A stretch of DNA of 64,000 bases from Sulfurovum indicum. GTDB lineage: Bacteria > Campylobacterota > Campylobacteria > Campylobacterales > Sulfurovaceae. Position 1 is the stretch's first letter, and every line of letters begins with the position of its first letter. Location of the stretch: contig NZ_CP063164.1 in the NCBI RefSeq assembly GCF_014931715.1, positions 1-64,000 of the forward strand. The letters run 5' to 3'. The position numbers were made by a program, and so were the translations under genes. Of the stretch, positions 48,661 to 60,943 are shown one piece after another. The notes beneath the pieces are model-generated. The model saw only the letters and a program-made list of their open reading frames with translations. It was not told where the DNA came from and searched no databases.

Positions 48661-48771
48661 TCTAGTTTATGTATCATATCATATTCTCCTTGCAATAGAG
48701 ACACTTTATGCAGAGCAAACCCTGAAAAACCCTTCCTGGACGGGAAGCATTTCCGTGATCTTCCGTAAATG

Positions 48772-48803
48772 TGCAAAGTATCTGCAACAATCTTATGTAC
48801 AAT
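48772..48803 (+). promoter_or_regulatory. EPS box 5 with -10
   Basis: Plus strand: TGCAAAGTATCTGCA (48772-48786), 11 bp, then TACAAT (48798-48803). It drives the double glycosyltransferase and phosphomannomutase genes. Box 4, on the other strand, begins 111 bp upstream. Confidence 0.8.
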
Positions 48804-48833
48804 ACGTCAAAATCAGAGAGAAAAAGGCATAAG

Positions 48834-51194
48834 ATGAAAAATCTATTATATATAGATAGAGCATTTGTCGATGCAATAGGCGGAGACAAGAACAGAAGCA
48901 GGTATCTGTACCGGACATTGCAGAAATATACCAATGTCTATACCTGTATTATCAAGGAGGCTTCCGAATGTAAAGAAGAGAATGCTTCGCTGGAGCTGCC
49001 TGTAGCTCAAAAGGGAAGCCGGTTGCTGCCGGATGCGATTGCAGGATTCTCGGAAGAGTCGAAAGAGAGATTTGTTTCATTTATCAGGAAGCACGGTATC
49101 AGTGTACTCTTCTTCCGTACGATCGCTTTTAGTCCGCTTGCTCTTTATGCACAAAAGAAGATCCCCGGTCTGGATATCATTATAGATGCCGACCTGATAT
49201 TGTCAAGACTGATGGATCAGGCATGGAAAAAGAACAGATCTTTCGCAGGCAGATATTATCTTATCGAGAAGATGAAGCTCTCACTGTTTGAAAAAAAACT
49301 CTATAAACACAAGTTTACTTTTCTGTTCTCCAATGAAGAGGAGTGCCGAAATATCAAAGACCGGAATACCGGATGTCAGGTCAAATATCTGCCAAATACA
49401 ACACATCTGCGCCCCAAACAGCCTGATTGTCCGGACAGCAGGGTCATTCTCTTTTACGGTGCAATGGATTCAACGGCCAACAGAGATGCCTACGCATATA
49501 TTCACGATACACTGTATGATGCGATAAAAGATGATCTGGAACAGAATGACTATGAGATACATGTTGTCGGAAAGGGGTGCGATGCCCTTGCACCTTCCCG
49601 ACACGAACGTATCAAGATACTCGGAAAGGTAGATTCGATAGAAGAGGTTATTTTGAAGAGTTCATTTGTACTTCTTCCTATCTACATCGCTTCAGGAACA
49701 AATACCCGTGTTATAGAAACGGCAATGGCCGGACGTGCACTGCTTACGACCCCTCTGGGTATGGAGGGGCTTTCAGGCCCCAAAGAGAGAGAGTATGTGG
49801 CATCAGATATGAATGATATGGCCGCAAAGATAAAAAGATTGATGCAGGATAGGGAGTATCGTATGGGAAATGCCCAAAAGCTTCAGGACTCCATCGTTTC
49901 TTCATTCTCCTATGAGAACTTTGAGAACAGGTTAAAAGAGATAGTGCAGGAACCAAACGGCAAAAAGGTATCTCTTGTGCATATTCCAAGACGTTTTACC
50001 CAAAAATCGTGGGGCGGTACAGAAACAGTTGTGATGAACAGTGCACACTACCTGAAGCCTATGGGATACGAGTCGGCTATCTATACCTCAAAAGCACTGG
50101 ACGGCAATGCCAAAGAAGAGATGGATCAGGTTCCAATCAGGCGTTTTGACTATTTCTATCCGTTTTTTGGTCTGAGTGAACAGCAAAAGAGAGCTTTTGA
50201 TGCCATCGGGGGCAATCTTTTCAGTTTTTCTCTTCTTTTTGCGCTTCTGCGTAAAAAGAAGATGGATATCATCCATCTTCATACGCTAAAACGAATGGGA
50301 GCCATAGCAAGAACTGTTGCAAAATGGAGGAATATCCCTTATGTGATCACACTTCACGGCGGCTATTTCAATATCGATACCGAAGAGACAAATCATCGTC
50401 AAGAACAGCTTCAGAACGGTTTTGAGTGGGGCAGGATACTTGGCTGGATATTTGGTTCACGCAAGGTCATGGATGATGCTGCCGCGATTATAACGCTTTC
50501 TCAGGAGGAGTATGACCGGGCGTATAAAAAATACGGCAGCAAGGTTCACTATCTTTCAAACGGTGTAAATGTTGAAAAGTTTTCAAAAGGTGACAAAACA
50601 GCTTTTAAAAAAGCATACAATATTCCTGAATCAAAAAAGATGGTACTTTGCAGTGCAAGGATCGATACACAAAAGAACCAGATGCTTCTTATGGAAGCAT
50701 TCAACAGGCTGGGAAAAGAGATGGATGATCTTCATCTTGTGTTTTTGGGGGCAGTGTCCGATGATGCATATTTTGAAACCCTGCAAGCCTATATAGAGGC
50801 AAACGGACTGGGTTCCAAAGTGACTTTTGTCAAAGATCTTACTCCAAAGGATCAGCTTCTTGTCGATGCATACAGAGGAGCCGAGATGCTTGTACTCCCT
50901 TCACGTCATGAACCGTTCGGCATGGTTATACTTGAAGCATGGTCTGCGGGAACCCCTGTTGTTGCTTCCCGTACCGGGGGAATTGCAAAGATCATTACGC
51001 ACGGTAGAAACGGTCTTCTCTTTGAGAACGGAAATGACGATGACCTGTATCTGCAGATGAAGACTCTGCTTGGAGATAAAACACTAAGAGAGGCACTGGT
51101 AAAGAGTGCCTGTGAAGATGTGGAACAGTATGACTGGAAAAGTGTTGCCGAAAACCTGGATTCAATATATGCAGATGTATTGAAAAATGGCTGA
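48834..51194 (+). CDS. Tandem (two-domain) glycosyltransferase fusion
   Basis: A 786-residue protein made of two GT-B glycosyltransferases. The first half (about 1-375) ends in a degenerate nucleotide site GTNTRVIETAMAGRALLTTPLG. The second half (about 385-786) starts LVHIPRRFTQKSWGGTE and has the GT4 site RHEPFGMVILEAWSAGTPVV. ATG at 48834 follows AAAAAGG. One protein thus probably adds two sugars. Its end overlaps the region before the phosphomannomutase start by design of the operon (22-bp gap). Confidence 0.88.
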   Translation: MKNLLYIDRAFVDAIGGDKNRSRYLYRTLQKYTNVYTCIIKEASECKEENASLELPVAQKGSRLLPDAIAGFSEESKERFVSFIRKHGISVLFFRTIAFSPLALYAQKKIPGLDIIIDADLILSRLMDQAWKKNRSFAGRYYLIEKMKLSLFEKKLYKHKFTFLFSNEEECRNIKDRNTGCQVKYLPNTTHLRPKQPDCPDSRVILFYGAMDSTANRDAYAYIHDTLYDAIKDDLEQNDYEIHVVGKGCDALAPSRHERIKILGKVDSIEEVILKSSFVLLPIYIASGTNTRVIETAMAGRALLTTPLGMEGLSGPKEREYVASDMNDMAAKIKRLMQDREYRMGNAQKLQDSIVSSFSYENFENRLKEIVQEPNGKKVSLVHIPRRFTQKSWGGTETVVMNSAHYLKPMGYESAIYTSKALDGNAKEEMDQVPIRRFDYFYPFFGLSEQQKRAFDAIGGNLFSFSLLFALLRKKKMDIIHLHTLKRMGAIARTVAKWRNIPYVITLHGGYFNIDTEETNHRQEQLQNGFEWGRILGWIFGSRKVMDDAAAIITLSQEEYDRAYKKYGSKVHYLSNGVNVEKFSKGDKTAFKKAYNIPESKKMVLCSARIDTQKNQMLLMEAFNRLGKEMDDLHLVFLGAVSDDAYFETLQAYIEANGLGSKVTFVKDLTPKDQLLVDAYRGAEMLVLPSRHEPFGMVILEAWSAGTPVVASRTGGIAKIITHGRNGLLFENGNDDDLYLQMKTLLGDKTLREALVKSACEDVEQYDWKSVAENLDSIYADVLKNG

Positions 51195-56793: not shown

Positions 56794-57909
56794 ATGAAAA
56801 AGATATTGATAAGTGCATTGGCATATGATCAAGGGAAGTCCGGTATCGCTAACTATATAGAAAATGTTGTTAAAGCATTAGGTAAAACCATGAATATCGA
56901 GCTTATCGTTAATGAGGATGAAGTGGACTTTTTCAAGGGGATTTCTGACAATATCACTTTCAGAGTAGTCCCCCGCTACTTGAAAAAGCCTCTCTTCAAT
57001 ATGCTGTGGCATCTTTTGATACTGCCGTTCACGATCAATAAGAATGCTTATGAATGGATGCTTCTTCCGGCAGGGAACCGCCGTCTGATGGCTTTTTATC
57101 CCGTTAAAACGCTGGTAACTATGCATGATCTGTCCCAGTTCAATGTTACAAAGAAGTATGATATGTTCCGTATGTTCTATATCAAACATGTCATTCCTTT
57201 TTTTCTGAAAAGGGCAGACAGGATATTCACGGTAAGTGAGAATACAGCAAATGATATGGTTCTGCATTACGGGATGAACAAGAATGAACTTGTTGTAAAC
57301 TATAATGGTGTAAACACAGAAAATTTTTCACCCGATCTGAAAAGAGACGAAACAGTATTAAGGCTAAAAAAGCCATATATGCTTTATGTAGCGAGAATAG
57401 AACATCCCGGCAAAAACCATCTTAATCTTATCAAGGCATATGAAAAACTGCCTGAACGCTATAAGGAAGAGTATGATCTGTGTCTTATAGGCAGTGACTG
57501 GAACGGTGCGGAAATCGTACATGCCTATGCAGAGAACTCTCCTGACCGGGATCGTATAAAGTTTCTGGGGTATGTTCCGAATGATGAACTGCCGATGTAT
57601 TACAGTCAGGCATCACTTTTTGTATTCCCTTCATTTTATGAAGGGTTCGGTATTCCTGTAGTTGAAGCGATGGCAAGCGGTACACCAGTTGCAGCATCAT
57701 TTACATCTTCTCTTCCGGAGGTAGGCGGAGAGGCAGCAGCCTATTTTGATCCGAACTCGCCTGAGAGTATTGCCCAGGTGCTTCAAACTGTTCTCAAAAG
57801 CACTGCTCTCAGAAACAGAATGCGTGAGCTCGGATTTGAACAGGTAAAAAAGTTCAATTGGGATGAACATGCAAGGATCATTCAAAAAAGTGCAGATTCT
57901 GCAAACTAA
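56794..57909 (+). CDS. Family 4 glycosyltransferase
   Basis: A 371-residue GT4 enzyme. The N-terminal part (SALAYDQGKSGIANYIENV) and the nucleotide-sugar site FYEGFGIPVVEAMASGTPVA (E-x7-E) are typical of family members such as mannosyl- or glucosyltransferases. ATG at 56794 follows AAGGAAAC. Single-gene unit under box 7; box 8 for the next gene overlaps its stop codon. Confidence 0.9.
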   Translation: MKKILISALAYDQGKSGIANYIENVVKALGKTMNIELIVNEDEVDFFKGISDNITFRVVPRYLKKPLFNMLWHLLILPFTINKNAYEWMLLPAGNRRLMAFYPVKTLVTMHDLSQFNVTKKYDMFRMFYIKHVIPFFLKRADRIFTVSENTANDMVLHYGMNKNELVVNYNGVNTENFSPDLKRDETVLRLKKPYMLYVARIEHPGKNHLNLIKAYEKLPERYKEEYDLCLIGSDWNGAEIVHAYAENSPDRDRIKFLGYVPNDELPMYYSQASLFVFPSFYEGFGIPVVEAMASGTPVAASFTSSLPEVGGEAAAYFDPNSPESIAQVLQTVLKSTALRNRMRELGFEQVKKFNWDEHARIIQKSADSAN

Positions 57910-57931: not shown

Positions 57932-57953
57932 GTCAAAAATAAGGAGAACAATT

Positions 57954-59840
57954 ATGAAAGAATTTTGCAATACAGTAAAGAATAATCCCGGGAAATCAGC
58001 TATGGATATGTCGTTTGGCATACTGCTCTATCTGCTTTACCTGTGTATTCTCCCTTTTATGGTACTGATATCGGTACTGAAAAAAACAGAGCTTTATGCT
58101 CCTTTGAAAAACAGTCACGGAATGGAACTGTTGGTTTTCAATACCGACTTCAAACCTGTCCGATATTTGCCTCTGGGAAGATCGATACTGCAAAGAAAGA
58201 TATCTCTTGCAGGAACAGACCTTTATGAGGGCAAACCGCATGAAGGTACTCTGCCCGGACTTATTTCTCTGCATGGACTTCGTACTCTGAGCGGTATCGA
58301 TCATCTTGGTGTTGATAAGACAGATATGGAATACCTTCAGCACAGCAGTGTGATGTATGATATCAAGTTGATCGTACGTTATGCAGCAGCACTGCTGCTT
58401 TCATCCGGCAGAAGCGTATATCTGCCTCGTCTAAACCTGATGGGTGTAAGATTTATGAACACCACTATGAGTGATGCGGTTGCGATTATAGAGGCAAAAG
58501 CCAAAAGCAGAGAAAAGAGCAATATCTATTTTATCAATGCAGATACGTTGAATAAAACGTATGAACATGCGGCTTTAAAAAACATATTGAATAGAACACC
58601 TTATGTTTTTCCTGACGGCAGCGGTATCAAGATAGCCTGTAATATGATGAATATGCCGATCAGACAGAATATAAACGGTACAGATATGTTCCCGTTTATC
58701 TGCAAAATGGCGGAAAAAGAGGGCTTGAAGATATTTCTTTACGGTGCAAAGGAAGGTGTAGCAGACCAGATGAAAGAAAAAGTACTGAAAAGATTCCCTG
58801 GTTTACAGATCGTAGGTACTGCGAACGGTTATGATCTTCATGACAATGAAGTGATCAATATGATCAACCATTCTAAAGCGGACATAGTACTTGTAGCCAA
58901 GGGTGCACCGTTACAGGAGGAGTGGATCGATACTCATTCAGATAAGCTCTGTGCACCTGTTGTTATGGGAGTTGGAGGACTGTTTGACTTCTATTCGGAG
59001 AGTGTTTCCAGAGCACCGATATGGATGAGAGAGATCGGGCTGGAATGGATATACCGTCTTCTTCAGGAGCCTAAAAGGATGTGGAGACGTTATCTTGTGG
59101 GCAACCCACTCTTTTTGGTACGTACCTACCTATGGCATAAAAAACAAAAACGTGAAAGAATGAGAAGATACTATGAGACGGTAGCCGGAGAAAAAAGACT
59201 AACGTTCATTCCTGATCTCTCTTTGGTGACACACCGTGTCTATCCCTATTTCAAACGGGCGGTAGATATTATTGTAGCATCAATAGCGATACTTCTGCTT
59301 TCGCCGGTCATGTTAACTGTAGCAATGCTTATCAAGGCTGAGAGCAGAGGACCTGTCCTGTTCTCCCAAAAAAGGGTAGGAAGGGATGGAAAAGTATTCT
59401 CTATGTATAAATTCCGTTCGATGGTCCAGAATGCAGAAGCACTGAAAAAAGAGCTTGCAGCAGCAAACGAATCCAAAGACGGTGTGATCTTCAAGATGAA
59501 AGATGACCCGCGTATTACAAAAGTAGGCAAGTTTATACGCAAGTGGAGTATCGACGAGCTGCCGCAGCTGTTTAATGTGCTGAAGGGAGATATGAGCCTG
59601 GTAGGACCACGTCCACCGGTACCTTCGGAGGTAGCAGAGTACAGCAGTGAAGATCTTAAACGACTCCATATCGTTCCGGGGATCACCTGTTACTGGCAGG
59701 TATCAGGGCGAAGCGAGATACCATTTAAGCAGCAGGTAGATTTGGATAAAAAGTATATCTCTACCCGTTCGTTATGGACCGATATCAAGATTTTGTTCGC
59801 AACGATTCCTGCAGTACTTGCACAAAAGGGTGCCTATTGA
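57954..59840 (+). CDS. Initiating sugar transferase fused to WecG/TagA-type glycosyltransferase
   Basis: A 628-residue protein with three parts. Residues 18-150 look like a worn-out polyprenyl-phosphate sugar transferase: helix (FGILLYLLYLCILPFM), LPLGRSILQRKISLAG in place of the active block, and PGLISLHGLRTLSG like the family end. Residues 155-400 are a WecG/TagA/CpsF (GT26) domain (YVFPDGSGI, DIVLVAKGAP). Residues 428-628 are a complete sugar transferase with SQKRVGRDGKVFSMYKFRSM, DDPRITKVG, the catalytic pair Asp534-Glu535 (SIDELPQLFN) and GPRP. It starts the EPS repeat unit and probably adds the second sugar. ATG follows AAGGAG. Confidence 0.88.
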   Translation: MKEFCNTVKNNPGKSAMDMSFGILLYLLYLCILPFMVLISVLKKTELYAPLKNSHGMELLVFNTDFKPVRYLPLGRSILQRKISLAGTDLYEGKPHEGTLPGLISLHGLRTLSGIDHLGVDKTDMEYLQHSSVMYDIKLIVRYAAALLLSSGRSVYLPRLNLMGVRFMNTTMSDAVAIIEAKAKSREKSNIYFINADTLNKTYEHAALKNILNRTPYVFPDGSGIKIACNMMNMPIRQNINGTDMFPFICKMAEKEGLKIFLYGAKEGVADQMKEKVLKRFPGLQIVGTANGYDLHDNEVINMINHSKADIVLVAKGAPLQEEWIDTHSDKLCAPVVMGVGGLFDFYSESVSRAPIWMREIGLEWIYRLLQEPKRMWRRYLVGNPLFLVRTYLWHKKQKRERMRRYYETVAGEKRLTFIPDLSLVTHRVYPYFKRAVDIIVASIAILLLSPVMLTVAMLIKAESRGPVLFSQKRVGRDGKVFSMYKFRSMVQNAEALKKELAAANESKDGVIFKMKDDPRITKVGKFIRKWSIDELPQLFNVLKGDMSLVGPRPPVPSEVAEYSSEDLKRLHIVPGITCYWQVSGRSEIPFKQQVDLDKKYISTRSLWTDIKILFATIPAVLAQKGAY

Positions 59841-59916: not shown

Positions 59917-60270
59917 ATGTTGAAGATATTAAGAGAGTATAAAGACGGACATGTGGAATACCACTTTATCGGTTCAATGGAGGGTAGTGATCTTGAGCTG
60001 CTGAAAAAAATGATGAAAGAAGATATGAACCGTACATATAGATTTACATTTAATTTCAGAGAGACAACACATATCGATGCGAATACGGTCAAGATACTCA
60101 AAGAAGTATATGTTATGAGTGTTGAGTATGCATGTGAGATCAACCTGACAGGTCTTCATGCTCAGCCGGCGATCATGCTTGAAATCTTTCAGGCAGACAA
60201 ACTCTACAATATAATGGAACCTGTCAACAATGTATATGGAGGCGAAAATGAACCTTTGTATTATGCTTGA
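59917..60270 (+). CDS. STAS-domain (anti-sigma antagonist-like) protein
   Basis: A 117-residue protein with the STAS fold pattern: FIGSMEGSDLELLKKMM, RFTFNFRETTHIDANTVKILKEV and LTGLHAQPAIMLEIFQADKLYNI. The phosphorylatable Ser/Thr of SpoIIAA-type STAS is replaced by IDANT (Asn-Thr), so regulation by phosphorylation is open. First gene behind box 9; it overlaps the next gene by 23 bp. It may tune the EPS regulators encoded downstream. Confidence 0.7.
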   Translation: MLKILREYKDGHVEYHFIGSMEGSDLELLKKMMKEDMNRTYRFTFNFRETTHIDANTVKILKEVYVMSVEYACEINLTGLHAQPAIMLEIFQADKLYNIMEPVNNVYGGENEPLYYA

Positions 60271-60943
60271 TAAAACAGACTATGAGTCAATTTGGACAGA
60301 GCCGGTACTTCATCCCGAAGCGATGAGTATTGCAGGCAAGGAGATCATACAGTACTGGCTGGAGTGGGCAAGGTTCAAAGGGATTGAAAAACTTTATATC
60401 TATACAGAGTCGGAAGGAGTAGCGAGTGAAAAGATCGATATGCTTGAGACCCTTTACGGTGTTGCAGTAGTCTACCTGCATCCTTCCAAAAACATAGAGT
60501 ATACAGAGAATACCTATAGGGGGCTTGGTGTATTCCTTGACAGCGGTGAATACAGGACTATCAAAGATCTTGACAGCTTCCTGAAGTTGGAACGGGCATT
60601 GATTCAGGAACCGTTAAAGTACAGCTCTACTGTAGGGTATGGCAAGTTTAAGCATATACAGATAGGGAAAAACGTCTATATCCACAAATCTGCAAAACTG
60701 TCAGGGGCTGTGGTGATCGGAGATAACTGTATTATTGAAAAAGATGTTGAGATCAGGGACAGTGTCATTAACAGCGGTTCTCTTCTTAAGAGAGGTTCTG
60801 TTATCGATAACAGTCACATCGGCAAAAATATACACTTGGCGACGAACGTATATCTGAAAGAGAAAGCACTCTTTGAATCAACCATTTATGACATGGTCAA
60901 AAGAGAGAGTGTTGTACATGAGGGTATTTGTCTGAAAAGTTGA
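60248..60943 (+). CDS. Nucleotidyltransferase-like protein with left-handed beta-helix
   Basis: A 231-residue protein. The first half has a nucleotidyltransferase-like fold pattern (HPEAMSIAGKEIIQYWLEWARFKGIEKLYIYTES) but lacks the GxGTR...PK active signature at the N terminus. The second half has hexapeptide repeats (HIQIGKNVYIHKSAKLSGAV, VIGDNCIIEKDVEIRD). It may be a catalytically dead relative of sugar nucleotidyltransferases or a scaffold. ATG at 60248 has GGAGG upstream, inside the STAS gene end. Confidence 0.65.
   Translation: MNLCIMLDKTDYESIWTEPVLHPEAMSIAGKEIIQYWLEWARFKGIEKLYIYTESEGVASEKIDMLETLYGVAVVYLHPSKNIEYTENTYRGLGVFLDSGEYRTIKDLDSFLKLERALIQEPLKYSSTVGYGKFKHIQIGKNVYIHKSAKLSGAVVIGDNCIIEKDVEIRDSVINSGSLLKRGSVIDNSHIGKNIHLATNVYLKEKALFESTIYDMVKRESVVHEGICLKS

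Follow-up and report, generated by a model that had tools for sequence, protein, structure and literature searches.

The DNA analyzed here, referred to as the window, is a 64,000-nucleotide stretch of the Sulfurovum indicum genome (contig NZ_CP063164.1). It contains an uninterrupted reading frame for a 628-amino-acid protein in which a GT26 domain lies between two domains of the monotopic phosphoglycosyl transferase (PGT) type. The C-terminal PGT domain has the features of an active enzyme, and the N-terminal one is degenerate; we use the name psiPGT for such a catalytically dead (pseudo) monotopic PGT domain. Only two segments of the protein are strongly hydrophobic, residues 15 to 45 and 432 to 464, one in each PGT-type domain. 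The genes directly 3' of the triple gene overlap each other (59917-60270 and 60230-60943). The features of the locus are as follows.

56794..57909, + strand: GT4 glycosyltransferase gene of the same cassette, upstream of the triple gene with a gap of 44 bp (E 4e-107 to L254 and 2e-105 to L255)
57941..57946, + strand: ribosome-binding site AAGGAG, 7 nt 5' of the ATG, read directly
57954..59840, + strand: whole gene, psiPGT - GT26 - PGT, 628 aa, uninterrupted frame with ATG at 57954
57954..58427, + strand: psiPGT domain, residues 1-158, a degenerate monotopic PGT (hhalign, HMM of relatives, PDB profile search)
58008..58088, + strand: predicted re-entrant membrane helix of psiPGT, residues 19-45, with the conserved Pro34 (hydropathy maximum 2.67)
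58161..58166, + strand: position of the lost Asp-Glu dyad, now Arg70-Tyr71 (alignments)
58194..58223, + strand: RKISLAGTDL, residues 81-90, counterpart of KGDMSLVGPRP (alignments)
58254..58403, + strand: PGL(I)S motif and C-terminal helices of psiPGT, residues 101-150, its best-conserved part (PF02397 130-176)
58428..59153, + strand: GT26 (WecG/TagA/CpsF) domain, residues 159-400 (Pfam, alignment to TagA)
59229..59837, + strand: active PGT domain, residues 426-628 (Pfam, NCBIfam, dyad and helix)
59553-59558, + strand: catalytic D534-E535 of the active PGT (alignment)
59917..60270, + strand: STAS-like small protein, a weak match (Pfam STAS E 0.0024, under cut-off)
60230..60943, + strand: NTase-like/LbH protein with hexapeptide repeats (E 4.7e-13 to the cassette NTase-LbH model)

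The middle and C-terminal domains were readily assigned to enzyme families. Pfam placed Glyco_tran_WecG (PF03808) at residues 217 to 380 (E 9.4e-62; 208 bits versus a cut-off of 27.4) and Bac_transf (PF02397) at residues 434 to 622 (E 8.5e-73; profile positions 1 to 178 of 179), and NCBIfam gave matches to exopolysaccharide PGTs at the C terminus and to TagA/WecG in the middle. A preliminary description of the locus had placed a WecG/TagA-type GT26 domain ahead of a complete PGT with the dyad Asp534-Glu535, and both elements were found where it had put them. The re-entrant helix of the C-terminal PGT keeps Ser450-Pro451. This domain (426 to 628) is a full member of the PF02397 PGTs and, on the basis of its family, would transfer a sugar phosphate to polyprenyl phosphate.

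The GT26 domain was aligned throughout its length with TagA (7mpk/5wb4) of the WecG/TagA/CpsF family (E 2.7e-41). The general base of TagA, D65, corresponds to D221, and TagA N39 corresponds to N195 (TagA residues from PMC6493773); arginines 214, 221, and 224 of the TagA appendage correspond to R368, R375, and R378. Thr37 of TagA, which is thought to position ManNAc, is replaced by F193 (58530-58532), and this position is an invariant Phe across 12 aligned psiPGT-associated GT26 domains. The loss of Thr37 leaves membership in GT26 intact and lowers the claim of ManNAc transfer, suggesting that the donor sugar may be other than ManNAc.

The preliminary description had also proposed that the N terminus is a degenerate sugar transferase. 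Residues 101 to 146 matched the PF02397 profile at positions 130 to 176 with an E value of 0.007, which is under the curated cut-off. Pairwise alignment of the protein's two PGT-type halves was not significant (local score of 41 versus a shuffle maximum of 56), and relatives were therefore needed to settle homology. A profile made without the window, from 11 related N-terminal domains of other bacteria, found window residues 22 to 153 at E 1.3e-14, while the best of 1000 shuffles reached E 0.02. When 12 psiPGT domains were compared with 9 active partner PGTs by hhalign, the score was 99.5% and the E value 1.1e-22 over 160 columns. The psiPGT profile, searched against all PDB sequences, returned WbaP (4e-17) and PglC (4e-15), with the next match at E 0.96. 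Individually, 10 of the 12 psiPGT domains matched PF02397 at E <= 0.01. These data indicate, at the level of sequence profiles, that residues 1 to 158 share common descent with PGTs and that the proposed degenerate copy is a true homologue. The end alignment given for it was borne out as well, since PGLISLHGLRTLSGI matches the PGT family end PGITCYWQVSGRSEI. An AlphaFold model of residues 1 to 158, made with 36 active PGT sequences as the only companions, had a pLDDT of 69.9 and a pTM of 0.46 and gave no Foldseek/VIA match. Full-length models made with 8 relatives as companions were weak outside GT26; because the genuine PGT domain was poor too, the low score says little about psiPGT.

In three alignments of different make-up, V69-RYLPLGRSILQRKISLAG aligned with IDELPQLFNVLKGDMSLVG, so that RKISLAGTDL corresponds to KGDMSLVGPRP. 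The same three alignments ruled out the register of the preliminary description, in which RKISLAGTDL stood at RKWSIDELPQ. The statement that the N-terminal Asp-Glu pair is gone was correct, as the dyad columns hold Arg70-Tyr71. None of 27 psiPGTs (window included) has the dyad, versus all 9 partner PGTs. Likewise, the FRSM-to-IRK substrate segment measures 37 residues in 9/9 partner PGTs and 0 residues in 27/27 psiPGTs. Without the dyad and this segment, the known PGT chemistry is impossible for psiPGT, and because the losses are common to all 27 psiPGTs, the dead state predates the window protein. Other features have been kept. The membrane-helix proline is present in 24 of 27 psiPGTs, the Gly at window residue 87 in every one, and the PG(I/L/V) motif has its Pro (P101) in 27/27 and G102 in 96%; the C-terminal helices are also retained among psiPGTs.

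A GT26 protein encoded on an Azospirillum argentinense plasmid has an N-terminal Bac_transf domain that scores past the Pfam cut-off (40.5 bits) and has no Asp-Glu; an active PGT is encoded by a separate gene nearby. Joint-alignment searches extended the psiPGT-GT26 pairing to the Gammaproteobacteria sample and to the phylum of a Kiritimatiellia genome, giving 26 loci outside the window (Alphaproteobacteria, Gammaproteobacteria, and the Verrucomicrobiota/Kiritimatiellota sample). These loci are not independent, since 10 come from the G736 family, to which a genome listed as Competibacteraceae (L055/G379) belongs as well; the other 16 comprise 8 from a second gammaproteobacterial family, 2 from other Gammaproteobacteria, that of Azospirillum, and 5 from Verrucomicrobiota/Kiritimatiellota. 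No relatives with psiPGT were found in the viral contigs searched. The N-terminal extension of the L093 GT26 was considered as a psiPGT and dropped, as the psiPGT model had no match to it and it reads as a HAD-type phosphatase; the gene (L093:2590-3915), from a Bacteroidetes genome, thus has GT26 behind an apparent HAD-type phosphatase domain.

The psiPGT domain evolves faster than the GT26 enzyme, yet under purifying selection. Median dN/dS was 0.31 for psiPGT versus 0.13 for GT26 (Nei-Gojobori; 45 pairs with finite estimates, from 18 distinct sequences of two families of Gammaproteobacteria); these are rough values, since dS was often ~1 and the pairs share history.

Within Sulfurovum, psiPGT was absent from the 60 genomes of the same genus that were searched, and a family-profile search of a phylum-wide sample found it in none of 346 other genomes. 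In quick trees, the window PGT grouped with the partner PGTs and Kiritimatiellota PGTs (support 86), apart from PGTs of its own order, and the window GT26 grouped with L220 and L221 of the Verrucomicrobiota/Kiritimatiellota search (support 89). On the simplest reading, the cassette would have been gained horizontally and the PGT then fused.

The neighbors of psiPGT-GT26 recur between loci. At 23 of the 26 loci an active PGT lies next to psiPGT-GT26 or is fused to it, and at 22 an NTase-like/LbH protein is next in line. A second psiPGT, at the C terminus, was detected in 11 of these 22 proteins, and in three of those tested with Pfam it scored at or above the PF02397 cut-off. The cassette NTase domains are without the GxGTR...PK signature that is present in a real nucleotidyltransferase of the window. 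The window NTase-LbH protein (60230-60943) has no C-terminal psiPGT, and its NTase signature is lost. LbH domains usually trimerize, and the NTase-LbH proteins of the psiPGT cassette are therefore possibly a trimeric scaffold. The NTase-LbH genes L249:8360-9820, L251:3876-5333, L257:8673-10061, and L293-L301 encode proteins of 460 to 490 aa, most of them ending in the second psiPGT.

The joints between the parts vary. The order psiPGT-GT26-PGT forms one chain in the window and in L250; in L257 and L258 a single GT4-psiPGT-GT26 protein is followed by the PGT and then by NTase-LbH; elsewhere the genes are separate. Such varied fusion joints are as expected for parts that work together. Wzc- and Wza-like genes lie near the L257 and L258 cassettes, with a Wzy-like gene near L257. 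In the window cluster, Wzy_C, Poly_export (Wza-type), and a weak Wzz-type match occur at 42 to 47 kb, and the cluster is, from these matches, predicted to be of the Wzx/Wzy kind. The same cluster encodes, at 48771-51194, a protein of 807 aa whose two halves are both GT4-type glycosyltransferases. Other combinations of these domains were seen in the genomes searched. An alphaproteobacterial genome has the reversed order, with an active long PGT before GT26 (L173:295-2631; 779 aa). L226-L240 and L139, from the Verrucomicrobiota/Kiritimatiellota sample, are GT4-GT26 fusions of ~600 aa, and the GT4 half in L226-L240 is close to the window GT4 gene (E about 1e-90).

Taken together, psiPGT is a conserved pseudo-PGT module of a predicted exopolysaccharide-initiation cassette, with the window protein as a triple-fused member, and a scaffold role is plausible. 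Pfam and profile homology support the architecture of the preliminary description, that of an initiating PGT, a GT26 for the second sugar, and a dead PGT copy, as the predicted content of one protein. The finding is larger than the one described there: the dead copy is a conserved module, in the relatives mostly unfused to the active PGT and found also on a second cassette protein.

We consider it probable that the catalytically dead monotopic PGT at the N terminus has been retained as a module for membrane docking. psiPGT would anchor GT26 in the membrane next to the PGT, the active PGT would move sugar-1-phosphate onto undecaprenyl phosphate, and the GT26 domain would add the second sugar to the PGT product before that product diffuses off; the upstream GT4 enzyme would probably add a further sugar. 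We infer the membrane seating, the co-localization, the sugar order, and any contact between dead and live PGT domains. Pro24 of PglC interrupts the helix, giving the re-entrant fold, and has been implicated in polyprenol binding (PMC6133551). psiPGT retains the PglC determinants of membrane seating, the helix and the Pro, and the membrane seating put forward in the preliminary description is well supported by the hydrophobic, re-entrant-type helix predicted at residues 19 to 45 with P34. Also in favor of docking, TagA is active only when membrane associated, and GT26 enzymes need membrane association (PMC6493773). The weak AlphaFold model of residues 1 to 158, with no match in the PDB, counts against docking, as do three further observations. 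A TagA-type GT26 already has its own C-terminal membrane appendage, whose arginines are kept here, so that the need for a further anchor is not obvious. Relatives without psiPGT exist (GT26-PGT in Ruegeria and Sulfitobacter; GT4-GT26 in the Kiritimatiellota/Verrucomicrobiota sample), so the module is dispensable. Finally, GT26 in the window protein and in L250 is already tethered to an active PGT, and psiPGT is still retained.

Other roles for the dead domain can be weighed against the same data. psiPGT might mainly be a partner of the active PGT, in the same chain or in another, and the resulting dead-live pseudo-heterodimer would activate or regulate initiation. Large PGTs such as WbaP are functional dimers, the Myxococcus PGT EpsZ has been proposed to be switched on by a dimer-promoting partner, and psiPGT and active PGT co-occur at most of the loci. 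PglC, the small-PGT prototype, nevertheless works as a monomer, WbaP dimerizes via other domains, and 3 psiPGT-GT26 loci have no nearby PGT; we regard this role as unlikely. The retained membrane and C-terminal helices, with the catalytic segment gone, could instead mean that psiPGT still binds lipid and is no structural anchor but a holder of the polyprenyl-diphosphate-sugar, from which GT26 would receive the PGT product. The helix proline kept in most psiPGTs is the one implicated in polyprenol binding by PglC, but it may simply kink the helix, and the protein that carries the second psiPGT is NTase-like and has no need of a lipid substrate; we regard a holder role as quite unlikely.

Least of all do the data favor the view that the N-terminal domain is a relic left without function after gene duplication and fusion. 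The window psiPGT is among the most degenerate seen, as its Pfam E value indicates, and its horizontal acquisition is probable. Domains of this kind, with identical losses, nonetheless occur at the 26 loci in several phyla and are under purifying selection where close relatives exist, and the window copy is still part of one open frame. Decay was rejected on the conservation and the dN/dS values, and we judge a relic to be highly improbable. Returning to membrane docking, a broader version, which we put forward tentatively, is that dead PGT domains serve generally as recruitment tags, through which at least two different proteins, GT26 and the NTase-like/LbH protein, gather round one active PGT. 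The physical assembly line so formed at the membrane would initiate the polysaccharide, and the window protein would be its covalent version. The conservation of a dead copy in multiple phyla suggests a use for worn-out enzymes in bacteria, as parts that keep a membrane assembly line from coming apart.

Research on glycoconjugate biosynthesis has long aimed to study membrane complexes and membrane-bound metabolons (PMC10942596), and the present findings bear on whether the early enzymes of surface polysaccharides form a physical complex. The dead PGT occurs on two different proteins and here in one tractable 628-residue chain, and it provides a defined part to delete, move, or swap. No report of pseudo-PGT domains was found in the literature searched, which left out most subscription journals and is thus weak evidence for novelty.

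Among known systems, psiPGT is closest to the PF02397 PGTs (PglC type; the catalytic domain of WbaP and WcaJ), with which it shares the membrane helix, a KGDMSLVGPRP-like stretch, PG(I/L), and the C-terminal helices, whereas the Asp-Glu dyad and the FRSM-to-IRK segment of that family are both missing from it. Unlike TagA, the window GT26 is fused between two PGT-type domains. The same single-chain order, psiPGT - GT26 - active PGT, is found in a 742-aa gammaproteobacterial protein of G845 (L250), which differs from the window protein in its longer linker, its phylum, and the lack of a detected NTase-LbH gene alongside. The Roseobacter fusions (Ruegeria L032/L033; Sulfitobacter WP_322329976.1 in L126) have GT26 before an active PGT, as in the window, and their GT26 domains fall in the same part of the tree as the window GT26, but unlike the window protein they are without psiPGT. 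Proteins of the Bi-PGT class (O'Toole et al. 2021, per PMC10942596) resemble the window protein in joining an active PGT to a further functional domain; the descriptions consulted mention neither a dead second PGT nor a module shared with a neighbor protein. With an intact PGT core and a further enzyme domain in a single chain, the 628-aa protein would, by its predicted domains, be a Bi-PGT.
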